Assembly (NCBI GenBank): GCA_009930495.1
Contig: RZYB01000009.1
Coordinates: 1-35,726, forward strand
Length of the DNA: 35,726 nt
Source of the DNA: Deltaproteobacteria bacterium
Lineage (GTDB): Bacteria > Desulfobacterota > Desulfovibrionia > Desulfovibrionales > Desulfomicrobiaceae
Direction: 5' to 3'
Shown here: piece after piece, positions 24,817 through 33,861 of the stretch
Numbering within the stretch: position 1 is the stretch's first letter
Layout: every line of letters starts with the position of its first letter
Notes under the pieces: generated by a model
The model's input: only the letters and a program-made list of their open reading frames with translations
What the model was told of the DNA's origin: nothing
Databases searched by the model: none
Translations under genes and position numbers: made by a program

Positions 24817-24981
24817 CATTGGGGTGCGTAGGATAACGTTCGGATTAGGGCAGAATCGAGGTGTTGGTTCCCAACCATGGGCTTGGCAGCAGTGACGCGT
24901 CTAGGTTATGCGCGTGGATAAAGACACCGGAATTGATTGCGTTGGGATTTTTTGTCTAATTTTTGAACATGGAGGATTGCC

Positions 24982-25863
24982 ATGCGGTTTTCTCGGAATT
25001 TCGTTCTTGTTCTTGTTGTCGTAGTGCAGGTATTGTTTGGATGCTCGTCAGAACCCGAAGAGACCACGCAGGCTTCTCAGGATGCTGATACACAGGTTGT
25101 GGAATCCGAGACTCCGATACGTGAAGATATCGTGGAAACAGAGAGTGCGTCGCCTTCCTCGGAGAATGAATATGTTTTAATTGCTCCGAATATGTCTCGG
25201 ACATTCACATTGACAGTTCCTGTCCCATTTTTGCATGCCACCGACCATTCTTCAAGTCTTGAAATTGAATACGCTATAACAGGTAACTCATGGGAAGATA
25301 AGGGGTTGCAGGTTATGATTGACAACTCTTTTATTTCTCCGAATATGGCAAGTATATGGACTGTTCGAAGTGATATCTCTACTGCAACGGAGATAATCAA
25401 GCAGTACAGCCCTCTCGATACAAGAGGGTATAAGGCCGCAATTACGATGGGACACGGGGATACTCTTGTTGAAACAGGTCGGCCATGGGAGTTTCGTGAG
25501 CAGGGCAACAAGCCGTTGTTTGAGTTACGACAAAAATGGAATGTTGCTGAAGATGTAGATGATTCCCTTTTTGAACTCAAAACCTACGCATTTTATCAGG
25601 CTTCGATTACTTTTACAGTTGTGTGCCCGGATGAAGACAGCCTTTCCCGTATTGATAAGGAGTCGAATGGTAATTTCATAAATTTAGCATTTTGGCCGCG
25701 CCACGTGGCCTATAACAATGGTTTGGAGTTGCAAGAACGGGATATTTCCAAGGATAGCCACCGGACCCATGTTCCTGTAACCTTAGACAAGGAGATGAGC
25801 GGGTGTAAGGGTATATCCATTCGAACCGCTAGCGAGAATTTCTATGAATTAACCAGTTTCTGA
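24982..25863 (+). CDS. Predicted lipoprotein, function unknown
   Basis: The 293-residue protein has a lipoprotein signal peptide: MRFSR, a Val/Leu-rich core, then the lipobox VLFGC with the modified Cys at residue 21. Ser at +2 suggests the outer membrane by the E. coli rule. A Glu/Thr/Ser-rich linker of about 40 residues follows, then a domain with many beta-strand-like segments (FTLTVPVPFLHA, LEIEYAITGNSW, ASITFTVVCPDED) ending in TASENFYELTSF. I recognise no family. GGAGG lies 6 bases before the ATG. Its base composition is clearly AT-richer than the sat-qmo genes, and it sits alone between the qmo terminator and the defence genes, which suggests acquisition by transfer. Confidence 0.75.
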   Translation: MRFSRNFVLVLVVVVQVLFGCSSEPEETTQASQDADTQVVESETPIREDIVETESASPSSENEYVLIAPNMSRTFTLTVPVPFLHATDHSSSLEIEYAITGNSWEDKGLQVMIDNSFISPNMASIWTVRSDISTATEIIKQYSPLDTRGYKAAITMGHGDTLVETGRPWEFREQGNKPLFELRQKWNVAEDVDDSLFELKTYAFYQASITFTVVCPDEDSLSRIDKESNGNFINLAFWPRHVAYNNGLELQERDISKDSHRTHVPVTLDKEMSGCKGISIRTASENFYELTSF

Positions 25864-26069
25864 AGTATGTTAGCCTGATGTCTGTATGGGAAATCTTGGG
25901 CTGATGTTCAAACCACCCTCTAAATGTCACGACTAAGGCCTCATGATTTATCTCAAAACGTGTTCAATTTTCCTAGACCGATACATTGTGAGCAGATCCA
26001 GTCTTGGCGGCTTCCTTCGGCTGCCCACATTTGCTATGGCGCGACACCTGTGGATGGGGATTGTTATCG

Positions 26070-27671
26070 ATGTCCATGTCTAAGGTAATTCGAAAAAAGA
26101 TTGCCAGGATTAAGGCCGGCAGTCCGCCGAGGTTCATGGATCTTTTTGCAGGTTGCGGTGGGATTTCTCTCGGCTTTGCTACCGCCGGATTTGAACTGAT
26201 CGCATCGGTTGAACTCGACCCTCTGGCCGCAGAATCTCACGGAGCTAACTTTGCGAGTGTCAGTCATGGGATAAATCGGATGGCTCATTTCAAGGCTCGC
26301 GACATCACGAAGGAGGACCCGGCGTCGATCTTTAGTGATCTTGGCATCAACGGTGCGGTAGATGAGCAGGTGGATGTGCTTGTTGGTGGCCCGCCATGCC
26401 AAGCCTTTGCCCGCGTCGGGCGTGCCAAGCTGCGTGCCGAGGCATATCGGCGGAAGGAGGATGACGCTGATATAGCTTTTTTGGTGGATGGTCGCGTGAA
26501 TCTGTGGCAGCGATACCTACATTACGTCCGTGAGACCAAGCCTCTGGCACTGCTGATGGAGAACGTGCCGGACATCCTGAATCACGGGGGTAAGAATGTC
26601 GCCGAGACCGTGGCTGAGCACCTCCAGAATGAGGGATACGTTGTTCGCTACACATTGCTCAACGCTTCTTGGTTTGGAGTTCCGCAAACTCGTGAACGTA
26701 TGTTTCTAATCGGGGTGCATAGAGACCTCGACCAGGACGTTGTCTTCCCGTCGCCGACCCACTTCGCGGTGCTGCCATCTGGTTACGGGGGCACCAGAGC
26801 CTCTGCGCGGAAACTGATTCCGCAAAGCGCGATGCAGGGCTTGCAGTCTGAACACAGTCACTGTTGGATCAATGATCCTATTGTTGAAGATAGTCTGCCG
26901 CCGACAACCACTGCAGGCGAGGCGCTTGCGGATCTTCCTCCAATTTTCGCCCTTGACTTATTGGACAATGGTCAGATCGCTCGCGGTAGAAAAGACCCTG
27001 GCGAGCCCGTGGAGTACACGTCGGACAAACCTACAACAGCGTGGTCGCGCTTGATGCGGCAGTGGCCGAATTTCGGCACCAATGATCACACCACGGGACA
27101 TGTGATCCGCTACCTTCCGCGCGATTACAAGATCTTCAGTCTGATGGATGAAGGTTGGCAATATCCCGAGGTCTGGCGATTTGTAGAAGAGAAGCGACAG
27201 CAACTGCTCAACAAGCATTGGAAGTCGGGGAAAGGCAAAGGAACCGAAACTGCACAGATGCAGGAACTCATCAAGGCATGGACTCTTCCGTACGATCCCG
27301 GTAAGTTCCCAAACAAGTGGTGGAAACTTTTTCGGAACAAGCCGGTACGTACACTCCTGGCACATCTTGGCAAGGACTCATACAGTCATATTCATTTTGA
27401 CAGTGAGCAGGCCAGAACCATTTCGGTACGGGAAGCTGCTCGATTGCAATCATTTCCTGACGGATTCGTTCTTCGCGGAAGCATGAATCCTGCTTTCAAA
27501 CAGATTGGCAATGCCGTGCCACCACTTGTTGCCTACGCCATCGCGATGGCTATGCGGTCGATGATCGGTTGTCAGACGATACCCGACATGCGTACGGATC
27601 TGCTTGGTTTGCAAAAAAAGACCTTAGTTACAACTACGGGAAGGAATTGCGAGGTAAAATGCGTTTCCTGA
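26070..27671 (+). CDS. DNA (cytosine-5)-methyltransferase of a restriction/defence operon
   Basis: The protein (533 residues from this ATG) carries the C5-cytosine methyltransferase motifs in order: I, FMDLFAGCGGISLGF (about 23-36); IV, VGGPPCQAFARVGR with catalytic Cys110; VI, LLMENVP (about 162-167); VIII, QTRERMFLIG (206-215); a long variable target-recognition region of some 230 residues; IX, SVREAARLQSFPDGF; X, FKQIGNAVPPLVAYA (about 480-494). It would mark host DNA with 5-methylcytosine. The frame runs back to a TTG at 26004, but GGGGA lies 9 bases before the ATG at 26070, where methyltransferase-type sequence begins. It is the first gene of a five-gene overlapping series; its stop overlaps the next start by 13 bases. 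The recognition sequence cannot be read from the protein. Confidence 0.95.
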   Translation: MSMSKVIRKKIARIKAGSPPRFMDLFAGCGGISLGFATAGFELIASVELDPLAAESHGANFASVSHGINRMAHFKARDITKEDPASIFSDLGINGAVDEQVDVLVGGPPCQAFARVGRAKLRAEAYRRKEDDADIAFLVDGRVNLWQRYLHYVRETKPLALLMENVPDILNHGGKNVAETVAEHLQNEGYVVRYTLLNASWFGVPQTRERMFLIGVHRDLDQDVVFPSPTHFAVLPSGYGGTRASARKLIPQSAMQGLQSEHSHCWINDPIVEDSLPPTTTAGEALADLPPIFALDLLDNGQIARGRKDPGEPVEYTSDKPTTAWSRLMRQWPNFGTNDHTTGHVIRYLPRDYKIFSLMDEGWQYPEVWRFVEEKRQQLLNKHWKSGKGKGTETAQMQELIKAWTLPYDPGKFPNKWWKLFRNKPVRTLLAHLGKDSYSHIHFDSEQARTISVREAARLQSFPDGFVLRGSMNPAFKQIGNAVPPLVAYAIAMAMRSMIGCQTIPDMRTDLLGLQKKTLVTTTGRNCEVKCVS

Positions 27672-29680
27672 TACTAAGAATTCTCACCCACAGCGAACTT
27701 GGAATGTTCCACGAGTATCGCCGGCAGGGAAAGGAAGGTTCAAAGCAGCGCGCTATCAACTTTGATTGGGATGTGGTGGACCGCGTATTCCCTGCGGCCA
27801 AGGATTCCGATCTCATCGAAATGGATCTGCGGTACGACACCGATGATGGTGTCAGCAGGACGCGCCAGTGGTTGAAGCGGCAGGAGAAGAATTGGCGCCT
27901 TGAGGGCAATTGTCCGACTGATAAGTGTTACCACTTCGTCTCCCCCGGCTGCTTATTTGCCATGGAGATCGAGGCGGGCTCAACCCCGGCCGTAGGCTCA
28001 TGGGCGGTGTTTTCCGCAGATCATGCGGTGACAAAGGCGATACTCGCTGACGGAGAAAGCAGCCGATTGGCAAAGTCGGCAATGATCGCTCTTCATGACG
28101 AAGAGGGGGCGCGGACTTGGCGTACTCTGAGCAAAGCTCGGCCTGATCTTTTCGTGGCATCTCAGAGGGAATCGGCTGAGATTCCTGCCTTTGAAAAGGT
28201 GCGCCAGAACGGGGTTGAACTTGCCCCCAATCCTGCACGTCTTGTGCAAATCCTGGCGGCTGTGGGGCACACAATGCCCTCGGCTGTTGCAGACTTGTTG
28301 GACAACGCCATCAGTGCAGACGCCACCGAAATTACCATCACATTCGGTCGACCTGACGGCGGCCATGGTCGGTGGATGAGTATCGCCGACAATGGCTGCG
28401 GTATGGACAAAGTCAAACTGGCTGAGGCGATGCGAATTGGAAGCAATTCCGATTACGAGGGCAATAGCCTAGGCAAGTACGGTTACGGTCTGAAAGGGGC
28501 ATCCTGGTCACAGGCCAAGGTATTCACTGTTGTGACCAAATGCGATGGCGCGCAGGCAAATCATCTCACATGGGATGTCGATGACATGGACGGGTGGATA
28601 GCCAAGTCAGACACATTGGAGCCATGGGAGCAGGAGGCGACGGCTCTCGGAAATCATGGAACAGTCGTGCTCTGGGAGGATATGCGCCCTCCGCAGACTA
28701 AGCCGGCAGCGCGAGGCCTCGATCCCTACTCGTCCGAAATAATGCTACTGGAACGCCATCTCGCACTGGTTTTTCATCGTTTCCTAGAAGGCACGGCTGC
28801 TGGCCGGAAAAAAGTGACGATCACTATTAACGGCAACCGAGTCGAACCCAACAACCCCGTGGGCCACCCACTGGCGATTCCATACGACGCGAAACCCATC
28901 CGTATACCGACCGAAAACGAGGACGGTAAGGTGCTTGTGCAGGCCCATCTTCTTCCTACAGAGGACGAAATCGCCGCATACCACGCTGATGGAGGCCCAG
29001 ATGCCGCACGCCGTGCCTTGGAATTGATCGGTCTTCACGGTAAACGAAACGAAACTCAGGGACTCTTCATCTACCGCCATGACCGCCTTATCAAGTGGGG
29101 CGGCTGGCATCAGATGTGGGAAACCAATGACGAGAAAACCAAGCTCGCACGCGTGATCGTCAACTTCGACAAGGTGTTGGATGACGCCTTCAAGATCAAC
29201 ATCAGTAAACAGATCGTTCAGTTGCCAATGCAGCTTCAGACTGAAATCAAGATCTTAGCCAGCGTAGCCCGCAAAGACAGTCAGAAGAAGTACCGGCGCC
29301 CGCGTCAACCTAATGGAGCGTCATCACCCTCTTCTTCGGCTCAGGGCTCAAACCGTCAGGGAAGTGCAGGTGGTCCCAGGACCGGGAGTGGATCAGCGCC
29401 TGGAACTTCGCCAGCATCTTCTGGAACAACGGTGGCACCTGCTGCTCCACTTCCGAAGGTTGGCATCAAAGAGGTCAAGACAGATAAGTTTGTTTGGAAG
29501 TTGACGAAGGGAATGACTGGCTCCGTCGACATCCAGGTCAGTGAACTCAATCCGAGCCTGTCTGCTCTGGTGAGACAGATCCAGACAGATCCTCAAGCGC
29601 TTGTACACTTGGCTACCTTCCTTGGTAGGTTGGACGAGATGGAGGCCCAGAAGCAACTGATGGCAGGAAAAGATTCTTGA
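27659..29680 (+). CDS. GHKL-type ATPase (MORC/MutL-like) of the defence operon
   Basis: The 673-residue protein has an N-terminal domain of about 180 residues starting MRFLILRILTHSELGMFHEYR that I do not recognise, then a GHKL ATPase module. The N box is AVADLLDNAISADA (about 208-221), the G1 box IADNGCGMD (242-250), the G2 lid SLGKYGYGLKGASW (about 270-283), and the G3 Thr in NHGTVVLW. After a transducer-like domain comes a low-complexity Ser/Gly/Pro linker (about 545-600) and a C-terminal domain of about 70 residues. Such ATPases clamp DNA on ATP binding. The usual catalytic Glu of the N box appears as Asp. I chose the ATG at 27659 (GAGG 6 bases upstream); a TTG at 27569 would overlap the methyltransferase by 103 bases. 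Confidence 0.85.
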   Translation: MRFLILRILTHSELGMFHEYRRQGKEGSKQRAINFDWDVVDRVFPAAKDSDLIEMDLRYDTDDGVSRTRQWLKRQEKNWRLEGNCPTDKCYHFVSPGCLFAMEIEAGSTPAVGSWAVFSADHAVTKAILADGESSRLAKSAMIALHDEEGARTWRTLSKARPDLFVASQRESAEIPAFEKVRQNGVELAPNPARLVQILAAVGHTMPSAVADLLDNAISADATEITITFGRPDGGHGRWMSIADNGCGMDKVKLAEAMRIGSNSDYEGNSLGKYGYGLKGASWSQAKVFTVVTKCDGAQANHLTWDVDDMDGWIAKSDTLEPWEQEATALGNHGTVVLWEDMRPPQTKPAARGLDPYSSEIMLLERHLALVFHRFLEGTAAGRKKVTITINGNRVEPNNPVGHPLAIPYDAKPIRIPTENEDGKVLVQAHLLPTEDEIAAYHADGGPDAARRALELIGLHGKRNETQGLFIYRHDRLIKWGGWHQMWETNDEKTKLARVIVNFDKVLDDAFKINISKQIVQLPMQLQTEIKILASVARKDSQKKYRRPRQPNGASSPSSSAQGSNRQGSAGGPRTGSGSAPGTSPASSGTTVAPAAPLPKVGIKEVKTDKFVWKLTKGMTGSVDIQVSELNPSLSALVRQIQTDPQALVHLATFLGRLDEMEAQKQLMAGKDS

Positions 29681-32037
29681 TGGGTGCTGTTCAGATTGTC
29701 GGCGTCTTACAACATAGGCCAGCGTGGACTGACCGCCTTGCCGATTCATGGCGATACTGGAAACGGCTTGAGGAGCTTCTGCGTTCAGACCCGAAATGGG
29801 TGCAGCAGCAGGTCGATTCGGTGTCAGCGGAATCGCTTCGTGTCTTGCAACACCTGCCTGATCCAAAATCCATCACCCCTTTCCAAGGGCGAGGGCTTGT
29901 CGTTGGCTACGTGCAAAGCGGTAAAACGGCAAACTATACCGCTGTTGCCGCCCGTGCCGTGGATGCAGGTTACCGTATGGTGATCGTCCTGTCTGGCATT
30001 CATGACTCTCTAAGGAATCAGACTCAGAACCGCCTTGAAAGGGAGCTGACCGGCAATCAGAGCAACTGTGTACTTGACGATAGCTGCCAAGCGTGGATTA
30101 CGCTAACGACGCCAACAGAGGACTTCAAGGAACAGGACGGAAATATCCTCCAACTGGCAGGGCCGTTTCTTGCTGTCGTGAAAAAGAACGTCCCAGTGCT
30201 CCAGAAATTGTGTCGTTGGCTGGAGGCATCACAGTCTGATCTTGATGATCTGCCAGTCTTGATCATTGATGACGAGGCCGACCAAGCGTCCATAAATACC
30301 AAGGGCAATCGGCCGCTTGATGCATCTGTGAGCGATGATGACGACTATGATGAGAATCTCGCACCGTCCCGAACCAATGATCTTATCCGCTCGATTTTGA
30401 AGCGGACAAAGAAGGCGGCCTATATCGCCTACACGGCAACTCCGTTTGCCAACATCCTTATCAACCCGGAAGCTATTGATCGAAATGTTGGTGAAGATCT
30501 GTTCCCCAAGGACTTCCTCATTCAGTTGCCTCGGCCTAGGGGGTATACCGGCACGGAGGAGCTGTTCGGCGTTTCGGCCCAAGGGCGCGATGTCCTTCGG
30601 ATCGTCGCTGAGGAGGATGTGAAGGCACTGCGGGGAGCCCGCAGGCGCAGGAAGAGCGAGATCATCCTGGAACTGGCATCTGACACCTTGCCGAATTCCC
30701 TGACAGAAGCTCTCGTTTCGTTTTGCTTAGCCGGTGGAGTGCGGATTTTACGAGGACATACAGGCAAGTCCAACACAATGCTTGTGCATGTGAGCCAACG
30801 GACGGCTGAGCAAAGTCGCATCGCCGACGCCATTCGTGACCAATTGGATCTGTGGCGAGAAGCTGAACGACAAGGGCAGCATCTTGAAGCGATCTTTGGT
30901 CCGGTATGGGAAGGGATGAAGGCAGGTATTAATGTCCCGGCCAAAGATGAAGCCGTTCTTAAGGTTGCTGTCGGGGTCCTTCGGGAACTTCTGGTCTTGG
31001 AACTCAACAGCGTCACGGGTGAGAACCTGGAATATGACGAGAAGCCCGGCAGACATATTGTCGCAGTTGGCGGTAATCGTCTTTCCCGAGGTTTAACACT
31101 GGAGGGGCTGACTGTTTCGTATTTTCTGCGAACCGCCTCAATGTGCGACACGTTGCTTCAGATGGCACGATGGTATGGGTTTCGTCACGGCTACGAGGAT
31201 CTCATACGGATATGGACAACTGACGGTATTGCCCGTTGGTTTTCCGAATTGGCTCTGGTGGAACAGACGCTGCGCGACTCCATCGTCGCCTTGGCTCGTG
31301 CCGGCCGTCGGCCTGATCAGATGGCTATCCGGTTGCGATCGCACAGCGATCTTTTACTGACGGCGCGTAACAAAGCCCGAACAGCATTATCCCAGCAGGA
31401 TTCGTGGTCAGGTGAACATCCGCAAACAGTCCTTTTGCCGTTGTCAGACCACGCGACGCTACAAATCAATCTCGACCTCACAGATCGCTTTATCGAGGAA
31501 GTCTCTCCCTCGGTAAGATGCCATGGCGGAATGCTTGCGCGAGACGTGTCACCGGAAGTCATTGCGGCATTCTTGCGTGGTTACCACATCCACGAAGACA
31601 TCGTCGTCTTCCGCAATGACCTGCTGGCCGATTGGATCATGGGGCGTGCGGCAGTCGACGAACTGACGGACTGGTCCGTTTTTGTGGCGTCACCCGCCGA
31701 CGGCAAGTCGGTAACATTGGGCGGTCGGGAGGTCGGCCTCGTCCGTCGTAAACGCATCAGCAGCGAGAGTATTGGCATCCTGACTGACCCTGCACACGAG
31801 GGCGTGGATCTGCCCAGGGGATCGGATGCTTACAAACGGGAAAGCGGTGCTTATGACGCTGAAGCTATGCGCGCTGCCAGACCTTCCACTCAGGGACTTC
31901 TTCTGATCTATCCGTTGGACCCGGAGTATCTCGGTATTTCTTACAGGGAGCCGGTTATAGCATTGGCATTGAGCTTGCCGCAAACTTCGGATGCGGGAAC
32001 AACCTGGATTGTGAACAGCATGGTGTCCAATGGATAA
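29680..32037 (+). CDS. Z1-domain protein, superfamily II helicase-like ATPase
   Basis: The 785-residue protein has a P-loop GYVQSGKTANYTAVAARA (about residues 76-93, Lys82), Walker B LIIDDEADQASINT (about 193-206), a motif III-like AYTATPFANI (about 249-258), then VAVGGNRLSRGLTLEGLTVSYF (461-482) and the arginine-finger-type motif LLQMARWYGFRHG (about 491-503). The SGKTxNYT and QMARWYGFR blocks are hallmarks of the Z1 domain, found in restriction-like operons with MORC/MutL-type ATPases. It probably translocates or remodels DNA and feeds the nuclease partner; nuclease activity of its own is not shown. Its ATG overlaps the stop of the GHKL gene (TGATG). Confidence 0.9.
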   Translation: MGAVQIVGVLQHRPAWTDRLADSWRYWKRLEELLRSDPKWVQQQVDSVSAESLRVLQHLPDPKSITPFQGRGLVVGYVQSGKTANYTAVAARAVDAGYRMVIVLSGIHDSLRNQTQNRLERELTGNQSNCVLDDSCQAWITLTTPTEDFKEQDGNILQLAGPFLAVVKKNVPVLQKLCRWLEASQSDLDDLPVLIIDDEADQASINTKGNRPLDASVSDDDDYDENLAPSRTNDLIRSILKRTKKAAYIAYTATPFANILINPEAIDRNVGEDLFPKDFLIQLPRPRGYTGTEELFGVSAQGRDVLRIVAEEDVKALRGARRRRKSEIILELASDTLPNSLTEALVSFCLAGGVRILRGHTGKSNTMLVHVSQRTAEQSRIADAIRDQLDLWREAERQGQHLEAIFGPVWEGMKAGINVPAKDEAVLKVAVGVLRELLVLELNSVTGENLEYDEKPGRHIVAVGGNRLSRGLTLEGLTVSYFLRTASMCDTLLQMARWYGFRHGYEDLIRIWTTDGIARWFSELALVEQTLRDSIVALARAGRRPDQMAIRLRSHSDLLLTARNKARTALSQQDSWSGEHPQTVLLPLSDHATLQINLDLTDRFIEEVSPSVRCHGGMLARDVSPEVIAAFLRGYHIHEDIVVFRNDLLADWIMGRAAVDELTDWSVFVASPADGKSVTLGGREVGLVRRKRISSESIGILTDPAHEGVDLPRGSDAYKRESGAYDAEAMRAARPSTQGLLLIYPLDPEYLGISYREPVIALALSLPQTSDAGTTWIVNSMVSNG

Positions 32038-33022
32038 CGGCCTAACTCCAGCGCATTGGTCCCAGCTCCGGCCCATGCGACCCCAGAGCGAGGACGCTCT
32101 CACAGTCATTCCAATTGTTGTTGATGGAAACGAAACCTGCTTGTCTTCGGCGATGGATTATGCCGGGCAGCTTCACCTGCTGATTCCTGTGGAACATGGC
32201 CCTGTCGGAGCGCTGCCATCGGATCTTAATGGATTGAAAGTGAGGCACCGCCGCCTGGACACAGGGGCGGTTCTCGATCTTTCTGCGCCTCCGTCACACG
32301 AACAGGTTTTCACCCCGTTCTGCAGCGAGATTGTGGATGCTGTCGTACGTCAGTCTCGCGAACCATGGAAAGCTGTGGCCGCAACTATCCGTGCATGGCA
32401 GTCAGCCTGGAAACCAGCTCGGCAAGCCATAGACAAGATCGTCCAAGTCGGTCTCTTTGGCGAATTGCTGGTGCTTCGCTCACTGATGATTCCGACGCTA
32501 GGGCCAGCGGCCGTCGATCAGTGGCGTGGGCCGGACTCTGAGCGTCACGATTTTGTGGGGGATCAACTGCACATTGAGGTTAAGACCACGCGCAAGAGCC
32601 GCCCGGAGCACGAAATCTCCCGCCTCGATCAGTTACGCACTTCTTCCGGGTGTCGCCTGCTCTTTGTTTCCATCCTACTAGAGGAGAGCGTTGGTGGCGA
32701 CGAGTCGTTGGCAACTCAGGTGGACGCCGTTGTTGATCTGCTGCGGGGAGATGCGGCCGCGTTGGACTTATTCATGACGAAGATAGCCAATATGGGGTGG
32801 TCTGAGGAAGTGAGGAACTCCGGAGAGCTTCTTCGCTTTTTCTTGCGAGGAGCTGAAGTCTACGCCGTGGATGATGACTTTCCCCGACTTCCAGACGATT
32901 TTTTCCCGCCGACGGGCGTAGTCTCGGTGAAGTACACAATTGACCTTGCAAATTTGCCATCGCTAGGGATGGATGAAGTTGAGGAGATCATCAAGGCTGC
33001 GAACCATGGCTGCGGGTTCTGA
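32030..33022 (+). CDS. PD-(D/E)XK-motif protein (DUF4420-like), candidate restriction nuclease
   Basis: The 330-residue protein has an N-terminal beta-rich part and a nuclease-like core. GLFGELLVLRSL (about 141-152) supplies Glu145, and RHDFVGDQLHIEVKTTRK (about 172-189) supplies Asp174 and the E183-V-K185 pair. Glu, then D-x8-E-x-K, is the PD-(D/E)XK nuclease arrangement. The architecture, and its place after a Z1 gene, match the 'PD-(D/E)XK motif protein' family DUF4420. It is the best candidate for the DNA-cutting subunit, with Z1 as motor. The start overlaps the Z1 stop by 8 bases, and the end overlaps the vsr start. Confidence 0.8.
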   Translation: MDNGLTPAHWSQLRPMRPQSEDALTVIPIVVDGNETCLSSAMDYAGQLHLLIPVEHGPVGALPSDLNGLKVRHRRLDTGAVLDLSAPPSHEQVFTPFCSEIVDAVVRQSREPWKAVAATIRAWQSAWKPARQAIDKIVQVGLFGELLVLRSLMIPTLGPAAVDQWRGPDSERHDFVGDQLHIEVKTTRKSRPEHEISRLDQLRTSSGCRLLFVSILLEESVGGDESLATQVDAVVDLLRGDAAALDLFMTKIANMGWSEEVRNSGELLRFFLRGAEVYAVDDDFPRLPDDFFPPTGVVSVKYTIDLANLPSLGMDEVEEIIKAANHGCGF

Positions 33023-33467
33023 CGATTCCGGCTCAGGAGGAGCCAGCGCACGAAAAGGTCGGAAGTCCAAGCGTTTACCGCTGACAAGATCTGAGAACAT
33101 GGCCCGCATTCGGAGTAAGGACAGTCAGGCTGAGATGAAAGTGCGCCGCGCGTTCTGGGCGGCCGGACTCCGTTACCGTCTGCACGACAATCGACTACCG
33201 GGGCATCCGGATTTGGTATTTTCCGGCCGCCGCACTGTTGTTTTCGTTCATGGTTGCTTCTGGCATTGCCACGAAGGATGCAGCAACTTTCGCATCCCGA
33301 AGACTCGCACAGAGTGGTGGGCAGCAAAGCTTTCTCGTAACAAGGCGCGTGATGCTGATGTAAGCGTTCAGCTGAAGGCGATGGGATGGGATGTTGTGGT
33401 GATATGGGAATGTGAGGTCAATGACGCAAGGCAGTTGGATTTATTAATAGAAAAATTCAAGAAGTGA
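33006..33467 (+). CDS. vsr: Very short patch repair (Vsr) endonuclease
   Basis: Vsr nicks beside T:G mismatches made when 5-methylcytosine deaminates, so pairing with the C5-methyltransferase makes sense. The product (153 residues) matches the family: SENMARIRSKDSQAEMKVRRAFW, then GLRYRLHDNRLPGHPDLVF with catalytic Asp69, FVHGCFWHCHEGC (His82, Cys84, His87, His89, Cys92; catalytic and zinc residues), TEWWAAKLSRNKARD, and VVIWECEV with the last zinc Cys136. The Gly/Ser-rich first 25 residues are not typical of Vsr. I chose the ATG at 33006; an ATG at 32973 is possible. It overlaps the preceding gene by 17 bases and is the last gene of the operon. Confidence 0.93.
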   Translation: MAAGSDDSGSGGASARKGRKSKRLPLTRSENMARIRSKDSQAEMKVRRAFWAAGLRYRLHDNRLPGHPDLVFSGRRTVVFVHGCFWHCHEGCSNFRIPKTRTEWWAAKLSRNKARDADVSVQLKAMGWDVVVIWECEVNDARQLDLLIEKFKK

Positions 33468-33589
33468 AAGTACTTCTCACGTAATTAATAAAATCAAATA
33501 AAAATTTTGGTATTCATTCGTGCAGTTGCCTGCAGTATTGTTAACCAAATTATTATAATTATATATTACTTACTTGGTGGCCCATCAAA

Positions 33590-33635
33590 ATCCCAGCTAA
33601 AGCAATTTGTGCGCTTTGACTGGGATCTCTTTTTT
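33590..33635 (+). terminator. Intrinsic terminator downstream of vsr
   Basis: ATCCCAG-CT-AAAGC (33590-33603) pairs with GCTTT-GA-CTGGGAT (33613-33626), twelve pairs with a 2-nt internal mismatch and a 9-nt loop, followed by CTCTTTTTT. It lies 120 bases after the vsr stop and just before the ERF-like remnant. Confidence 0.8.
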
Positions 33636-33661
33636 GTTCTCGGTCCAATAAAGGAGTAATC

Positions 33662-33808
33662 ATGCATGACCACAATTATTGCTCATCAGAAACAACGAAG
33701 CTCGCCAAAGCCTTGATCCAGGTGCAGCGTACCTTGCAGCCAGCGACCAAGGACCGCCTCAACCCTTTCACCCATTCCAACTACGAAGTATGCTGTAATT
33801 TGTATTGA
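33662..33808 (+). pseudogene. Truncated N-terminus resembling an ERF-family phage single-strand annealing protein
   Basis: A small frame of 48 codons begins MHDHNYCSSETTKLAKALIQ and continues to QPATKDRLNPFTHSNY, then ends EVCCNLY-stop. The LAKAL, then Q-x-x-L-x-P-x-x-K-D, then NPF-x-x-S-x-Y pattern resembles the start of ERF-superfamily phage recombinases, where NPFFKSKYADL is typical. The similarity breaks off right after SNY, as if the rest of the gene was deleted. AAAGGAG lies 6 bases before the ATG, a strong ribosome binding site. Intact ERF proteins are about 200 residues, so this is a remnant, or a new small protein. Confidence 0.6.
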
Positions 33809-33861
33809 AGTCGTCATCCAGATGTCTGCAATGGAACAGGGTCAATGAAAACGAGGCCGCG

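Follow-up and report, generated by a model that had tools for sequence, protein, structure and literature searches.

In 2020, Gao and colleagues reportedly identified the defence system MZA and tested it. A literature search with the Mza protein names returned unrelated papers, and MZA turned up in survey tables only. The third type of MORC operon of Iyer, Abhiman and Aravind was predicted in 2008 to combine a MORC protein with an SFII helicase and an RE-fold E-D-ExK protein, and that paper proposes that the MORC subunit loops DNA between recognition and cutting sites (PMC2292703). In CglI and NgoAVII, a C5-methyltransferase is combined with an R-protein, which joins a PLD nuclease to a B3 domain, and with a Z1-containing ATPase. 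This ATPase is active only together with the R-protein on DNA bearing unmethylated sites; the data favour translocation ahead of cutting (PMC4267653, PMC5737866). A preliminary description of the locus analysed here knew of little experimental work on such operons and thus overlooked both MZA and CglI/NgoAVII; the biochemistry of the latter shows the action of the Z1 ATPase.

The locus lies in a stretch of 35,726 nucleotides of desulfobacterial DNA (hereafter the window) and consists of five genes on the forward strand, whose frames are all open and whose junctions overlap by 13, 1, 8 and 17 nucleotides. Translation reproduced the coordinates, the gene order and the overlaps of the preliminary description, and each of the five proteins was assigned by Pfam as it had forecast. 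The C5-cytosine DNA methyltransferase (DCM; 26070-27671, 533 aa; PF00145, E 3e-58) retains all motifs, including DLFAGCGG, PPCQ, MENVPD and IGNAVPP. It is followed by a MORC-family GHKL ATPase related to MzaB (27659-29680, 673 aa; HATPase_c_3, E 2.5e-25) and by a Z1-domain SF2-type ATPase related to MzaC (29680-32037, 785 aa; PF10593, E 2.5e-63; MzaC model, E 1.1e-120). The latter carries the P-loop GYVQSGKT, DDEAD, YTATPF and QMARWYGFR, and its segment DTLLQMARWYG matches the 2008 consensus DThhQXuRhFG with Y for F; a PADLOC type II helicase model also matches this protein (E 2.2e-36). The DUF4420 PD-(D/E)XK nuclease-like protein, which is related to MzaD (32030-33022, 330 aa; PF14390, E 4.3e-66), has the motifs GEL, HDF and EVK, and its core E145-D174-E183xK185 is unchanged across 30 relatives. 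The Vsr mismatch endonuclease (33006-33467, 153 aa; PF03852, E 2.9e-28; TIGR00632 above cut-off) keeps its catalytic and zinc motifs GHPDL and HGCFWHCHEGC. Pfam detects no PLD domain in the five operon proteins. A promoter scan ahead of the operon found none, and it is uninformative because it covers one promoter type.

The same five-gene order occurs on an Azospirillum plasmid and in a gammaproteobacterial MAG, where the operon is found on two contigs (L002 and L097) and shows 85-86% nucleotide identity over window positions 25985-33461. The order DCM-MORC-Z1-DUF4420 occurs at more than 10 further loci. Because the gene order is repeated in unrelated bacteria, the operon is not a chance arrangement. 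On the Azospirillum plasmid, the operon is followed directly by a gene for another large GHKL-like protein, whose C-terminal region is probably a nuclease (L079:15030-17093).

The MORC protein contains the GHKL boxes LLDNA, DNGCGM, GKYGYGLKGAS and GTVV. The segment GLFIYRHDRLI near residue 468 conforms to the MORC signature GhXhhpXXRhl (PMC2292703) and identifies the protein as a true MORC, not just a paraMORC. MzaB models match it with E-values of 1.8e-42 and 1.5e-47, and its predicted structure outside the N-terminal domain matches the MORC2 and MORC3 ATPases (E about 1e-14). In this model, the GHKL and S5-like ATPase module spans about residues 190-545 (28226-29293, boundaries approximate). 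A low-complexity linker of residues 548-597 (29300-29449), which has a pLDDT below 50 and is poorly conserved in the alignment, connects to a small C-terminal domain.

The operon resembles MZA in that proteins related to MzaB, MzaC and MzaD follow one another in the same order according to PADLOC and NCBIfam models. However, it lacks MzaA and AIPR (MzaE), carries an extra domain on the MORC protein, and includes DCM and Vsr. The MzaB, MzaC and MzaD models match with E-values of 1.5e-47, 1.1e-120 and 3e-22, corresponding to 162, 404 and 79 bits against equivalog cut-offs of 850, 1500 and 420 bits. No gene for MzaA is present in the operon, and the host genome contains only sub-cut-off matches to it, apparently housekeeping sigma factors; AIPR has no match in the whole host genome, which is 97.55% complete. 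With MzaA and AIPR missing and the scores below the equivalog cut-offs, an assignment to MZA proper was rejected. The MzaA model NF041931 has matches below its cut-off in 10 of 14 control genomes and, with up to 429 bits, in the host; its use is advisable only with that cut-off applied.

With the third operon type of 2008, the locus shares the MORC protein, the helicase with the C-terminal domain now named Z1 and the RE-fold E-D-ExK protein; DCM and VSR are frequent in that type, and both are present here. The domain assignments, the reading as restriction-modification and the attribution to Iyer and colleagues in the preliminary description were all correct, as judged by Pfam and by the operon type and motifs of that paper. 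CglI and NgoAVII share with the locus the C5-methyltransferase and the Z1-containing SF2 ATPase, and their B3-type recognition domain may have a counterpart in the window, as suggested by fold only. However, their nuclease is of the PLD type, whereas that of the window is the PD-(D/E)XK protein DUF4420. Their recognition domain resides on the nuclease, whereas the recognition-type domain of the window resides on the MORC ATPase, and the window adds Vsr.

This domain comprises residues 1-165 of the MORC protein (27659-28153) and is a putative DNA-recognition domain marked by a QxKNWR motif. The preliminary description called the MORC gene correctly but missed this separate domain. Long and short MORC proteins differ in length by this domain of approximately 165 residues, which is strongly conserved among the long ones and absent from canonical MzaB and the short ones. 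It has no entry in Pfam or PADLOC, and a weak DUF3000 match of a single member (E 0.0019, below cut-off) was dismissed. A plasmid search with the domain alone retrieved two MORC proteins and a 381-aa Deinococcus protein, whose gene adjoins those of Vsr and a cytosine methyltransferase. In the Deinococcus protein and in Rhodovastum and Azospirillum relatives, the domain is followed by NOV_C/DUF3883. The MORC and NOV_C versions align with an hhalign probability of 98.8% over 149 columns and have the motif QxKNWRxxG in common. DUF3883 has been counted as a presumed type II restriction enzyme group in a survey of archaeal systems (PMC10609329).

An AlphaFold2 model of the domain alone, built from 13 sequences, has a pLDDT of 80 and a pTM of 0.79. 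When this 13-sequence model was compared with solved structures by Foldseek, BfiI ranked first (probability 0.99, E 0.009), and the UbaLAI B3 domain with DNA took ranks 2 and 9; the E-values of the B3 matches to BfiI and UbaLAI lie between 0.009 and 0.08, none being below 0.001. The plant B3 domains VAL1, NGA1 and FUS3 recur in the list, and GFP-like barrels are interleaved with probabilities of about 0.1-0.25. Sequence-profile searches with three profiles of the domain reached neither a solved B3 protein nor any other solved structure. The predicted fold is suggestive, though no proof, of a B3-like, DNA-binding domain. The domain could bind protein instead of DNA.

A GTDB contig scan with the Z1 protein yielded 48 loci, from which profiles were built. 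These loci show three layouts. Window-like loci encode DCM, a long MORC (about 670-700 aa), Z1 and DUF4420, mostly with Vsr and never with AIPR, and they form one clade of the Z1 tree (SH-aLRT 100). The second layout combines a short MORC (about 500 aa), Z1, DUF4420 and AIPR, mostly with DCM and often with Vsr; AIPR was verified by Pfam in three such loci. The third, mainly actinobacterial, has the order MORC, DUF4420, Z1. The N-terminal domain is also found on other effectors. The NOV_C/DUF3883 loci L078, L080, L081 and L100 carry the homologous domain, a methyltransferase (46-51% identity in the pairs compared) and Vsr nearby, but they have a single nuclease effector in place of MORC-Z1-DUF4420. 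Whole-genome sampling revealed two further fusions of the domain, one to a McrB-like AAA protein that has a DUF2357-PDDEXK_7 partner (L092) and one within a 649-aa protein beside a HerA-like ATPase (L093). A free form of about 180-200 aa is encoded between DCM and Vsr in L094 (5917-8462) and in the Sinorhizobium meliloti locus L107 (7950-10517), in both cases divergent from an AIPR-type MORC-Z1-DUF4420 operon; there it is possibly a specificity subunit of an MZA-like system. Because the domain is free in these AIPR-type relatives, its fusion to MORC is dispensable. On a Rhodovastum plasmid (L080:8953-17866), a MORC-fused and a NOV_C-fused domain flank one junction with a single DCM and a single Vsr. 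The phage collection contained no NOV_C-type relative.

The domain is linked to one clade of methyltransferases. A C5-methyltransferase lies beside it in all 25 domain loci, which encode 26 domain proteins, and Vsr is present in the examined stretch of 20 of them, the exceptions being L004, L005, L007, L008 and L097. In a methyltransferase tree from which near-copies were left out, all domain-linked enzymes placed, including that of the window, fall within one METHYLTRANSFERASE clade. Among 399 genomes sampled evenly from one phylum, with the domain-linked kind of methyltransferase defined by an E-value of up to 1e-70, the domain was found in 5 genomes and the methyltransferase in 6, and all 5 domain genomes are among those 6. 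Without the centre genome, which was chosen for having the system, 4 of 4 would fall among 5 of 398 by chance with a probability of about 5e-9. A smaller tree showed a strict one-to-one pairing, which had to be abandoned when loci were fetched by methyltransferase similarity. The methyltransferases of these loci (L108-L113) sit inside the domain-linked clade. However, L110, L111 and L112 have no detectable copy of the domain, and L108, L109 and L113 are McrBC-like with a first protein that starts with a different N-terminus; HMMER --max and hhalign found no hidden copy in their McrB-like proteins. The link is therefore one-way: the domain always occurs with the clade, and some members of the clade pair with other effectors. 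The three McrBC-like loci (L108:6956-12249, L109:5857-11296 and L113:7882-13136) encode DCM, a protein of about 555-565 aa in the McrB position, a DUF2357 protein and Vsr. Their McrB-position proteins share another conserved N-terminus, ERQ...SNSAK...FPPEDEVYF, possibly a second recognition module for the same methyltransferase clade. In L010, L096 and L080, the MORC domain versions group with that of the window, and the methyltransferases group with that of the NOV_C locus L081. Partner methyltransferases thus appear to have been exchanged within the clade, as a site, or a close family of sites, common to the clade would predict.

The operon stands in a region of sulfate respiration. Upstream are genes for sulfate adenylyltransferase, aprB, aprA, two HdrA-like genes in the QmoA/B position and qmoC, and downstream are an EVE-domain gene and a LivF-like transporter gene. 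In 7 of the 8 congeners examined, the qmoC end (window position about 24820) joins the EVE gene (about 33850) directly without an operon; the eighth aligned at the EVE gene only. A segment of 24820-33850, with approximate edges, is therefore an insertion relative to these seven. The GC3 of the five operon genes is 0.55-0.60, compared with 0.69-0.71 for the Qmo and EVE genes, and the similarity to the MAG, which belongs to another phylum, starts at 25985 and stops at 33461, the ends of the five-gene unit. The empty sites, the GC3 and the bounded similarity indicate that the unit was acquired horizontally as a block. The preliminary description was right about an insertion, but it took the position beside sulfate-respiration genes as proof; the empty congener sites are the evidence. 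Among 16 genomes of the genus, a Z1 protein occurs in only one other, G004, where it is 34% identical, of another subtype and in another place; this is an AIPR-type relative with MORC, Z1, DUF4420 and AIPR and a divergent DCM and Vsr (L077:8221-18291). Neither an integrase nor a clear terminal repeat was found at the ends of the insert. Between Vsr and the EVE gene lies a short frame starting MHDHNYCSSETTKLAKALIQVQRTLQPATKDRLNPFTHSNYE (33662-33805) that is similar to the N-terminal part of ERF-family phage recombination proteins (Pfam E 0.0068, below cut-off); it may be the scar of a mobile element. A lipoprotein-like frame of 293 aa (24982-25863) with a very low GC3 of 0.435 and no Pfam or NCBIfam match lies within the insert but outside the block common to the other carriers.

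The operon is very probably a restriction or defence system. We slightly favour a scheme in which it acts as a horizontally acquired, CglI-like ATP-dependent restriction-modification system, whose MORC domain reads the unmethylated site. The methyltransferase would mark a specific site of the host DNA, and the MORC protein would read the same site, if unmethylated, through its N-terminal domain. The GHKL ATPase would then close as a dimer clamp on DNA and engage the Z1 ATPase, which would translocate as in CglI and NgoAVII, and the DUF4420 PD-(D/E)XK subunit would cut, thereby protecting the host from phage. Vsr would repair T:G mismatches arising from deamination of 5-methylcytosine and so limit C-to-T mutation at the methylated sites. 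The preliminary description had the GHKL clamp and the Z1 motor detect the site; the distinct N-terminal domain is the better candidate and probably is the reader of the methyltransferase's site.

The matches to the MzaB, MzaC and MzaD models would also fit a plain MZA-type operon, in which methyltransferase and Vsr form an adjacent independent cassette, MORC-Z1-DUF4420 senses cues other than an unmethylated site, for example structures from phage replication or recombination, and the N-terminal domain either binds a protein partner or replaces AIPR. In keeping with such independence, second-layout loci often have their DCM on the other strand or show none (L034, L038, L045, L047 and L048), and no fused form combines the domain with AIPR. 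However, all five genes of the window overlap on one strand, and the domain follows one DCM clade onto the unrelated NOV_C and McrB-like effectors, which an MZA-specific role does not predict. Because L094 and L107 carry both the free domain and an AIPR-type operon, the domain is no simple substitute for AIPR, and we consider a plain MZA-type operon rather unlikely. Modification-dependent systems are known to have McrB-like and GHKL partners, and EVE- and B3-like readers of modified bases exist. Such partners and readers, together with the fusion of the domain to a McrB-like protein in L092, would suit a type IV-like restriction in which the domain recognises modified DNA and the methyltransferase competes, regulates or is policed. 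However, the 5-methylcytosine methyltransferase of the operon would expose the host to attack unless the sites differ, and the Z1 systems that have been measured, CglI and NgoAVII, require unmethylated sites (PMC4267653); modification-dependent restriction is thus improbable here. Least of all do we expect a decaying mobile remnant with no present function. The ERF-like phage gene stub just downstream, the restriction of the subtype to this one sampled genome of the genus and the absence of a scanned-type promoter ahead of the operon would agree with decay, but five open overlapping frames have kept every catalytic motif, and a copy in a MAG of another phylum is 85-86% identical at the nucleotide level.

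Operons of this kind have already been predicted; what is new is the recognition-type domain on the MORC protein and its modular reuse on other effectors. The text of the 2008 paper, figures apart, mentions neither such a domain nor such reuse (PMC2292703). The machines that bear the domain are MORC-Z1-DUF4420, the NOV_C/DUF3883 nuclease, a McrBC-like ATPase-nuclease and a HerA-linked protein. On balance, we lean towards the view that the domain is a portable specificity cartridge tied to one C5-methyltransferase clade and used on at least four restriction machines as well as a free subunit. If this is true, the task of reading the site in a restriction enzyme would here fall to a MORC ATPase. 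In animals and plants, MORC ATPases condense chromatin and silence transposons, and their way of locating DNA is still under debate. A bacterial MORC that bears a putative recognition domain of its own and shares an operon with the matching methyltransferase, a motor of a known class and a nuclease makes the 2008 proposal of a restriction origin of MORC directly testable. The QxKNWR domain also provides a sequence handle for finding restriction systems that today's defence scans name only in part.
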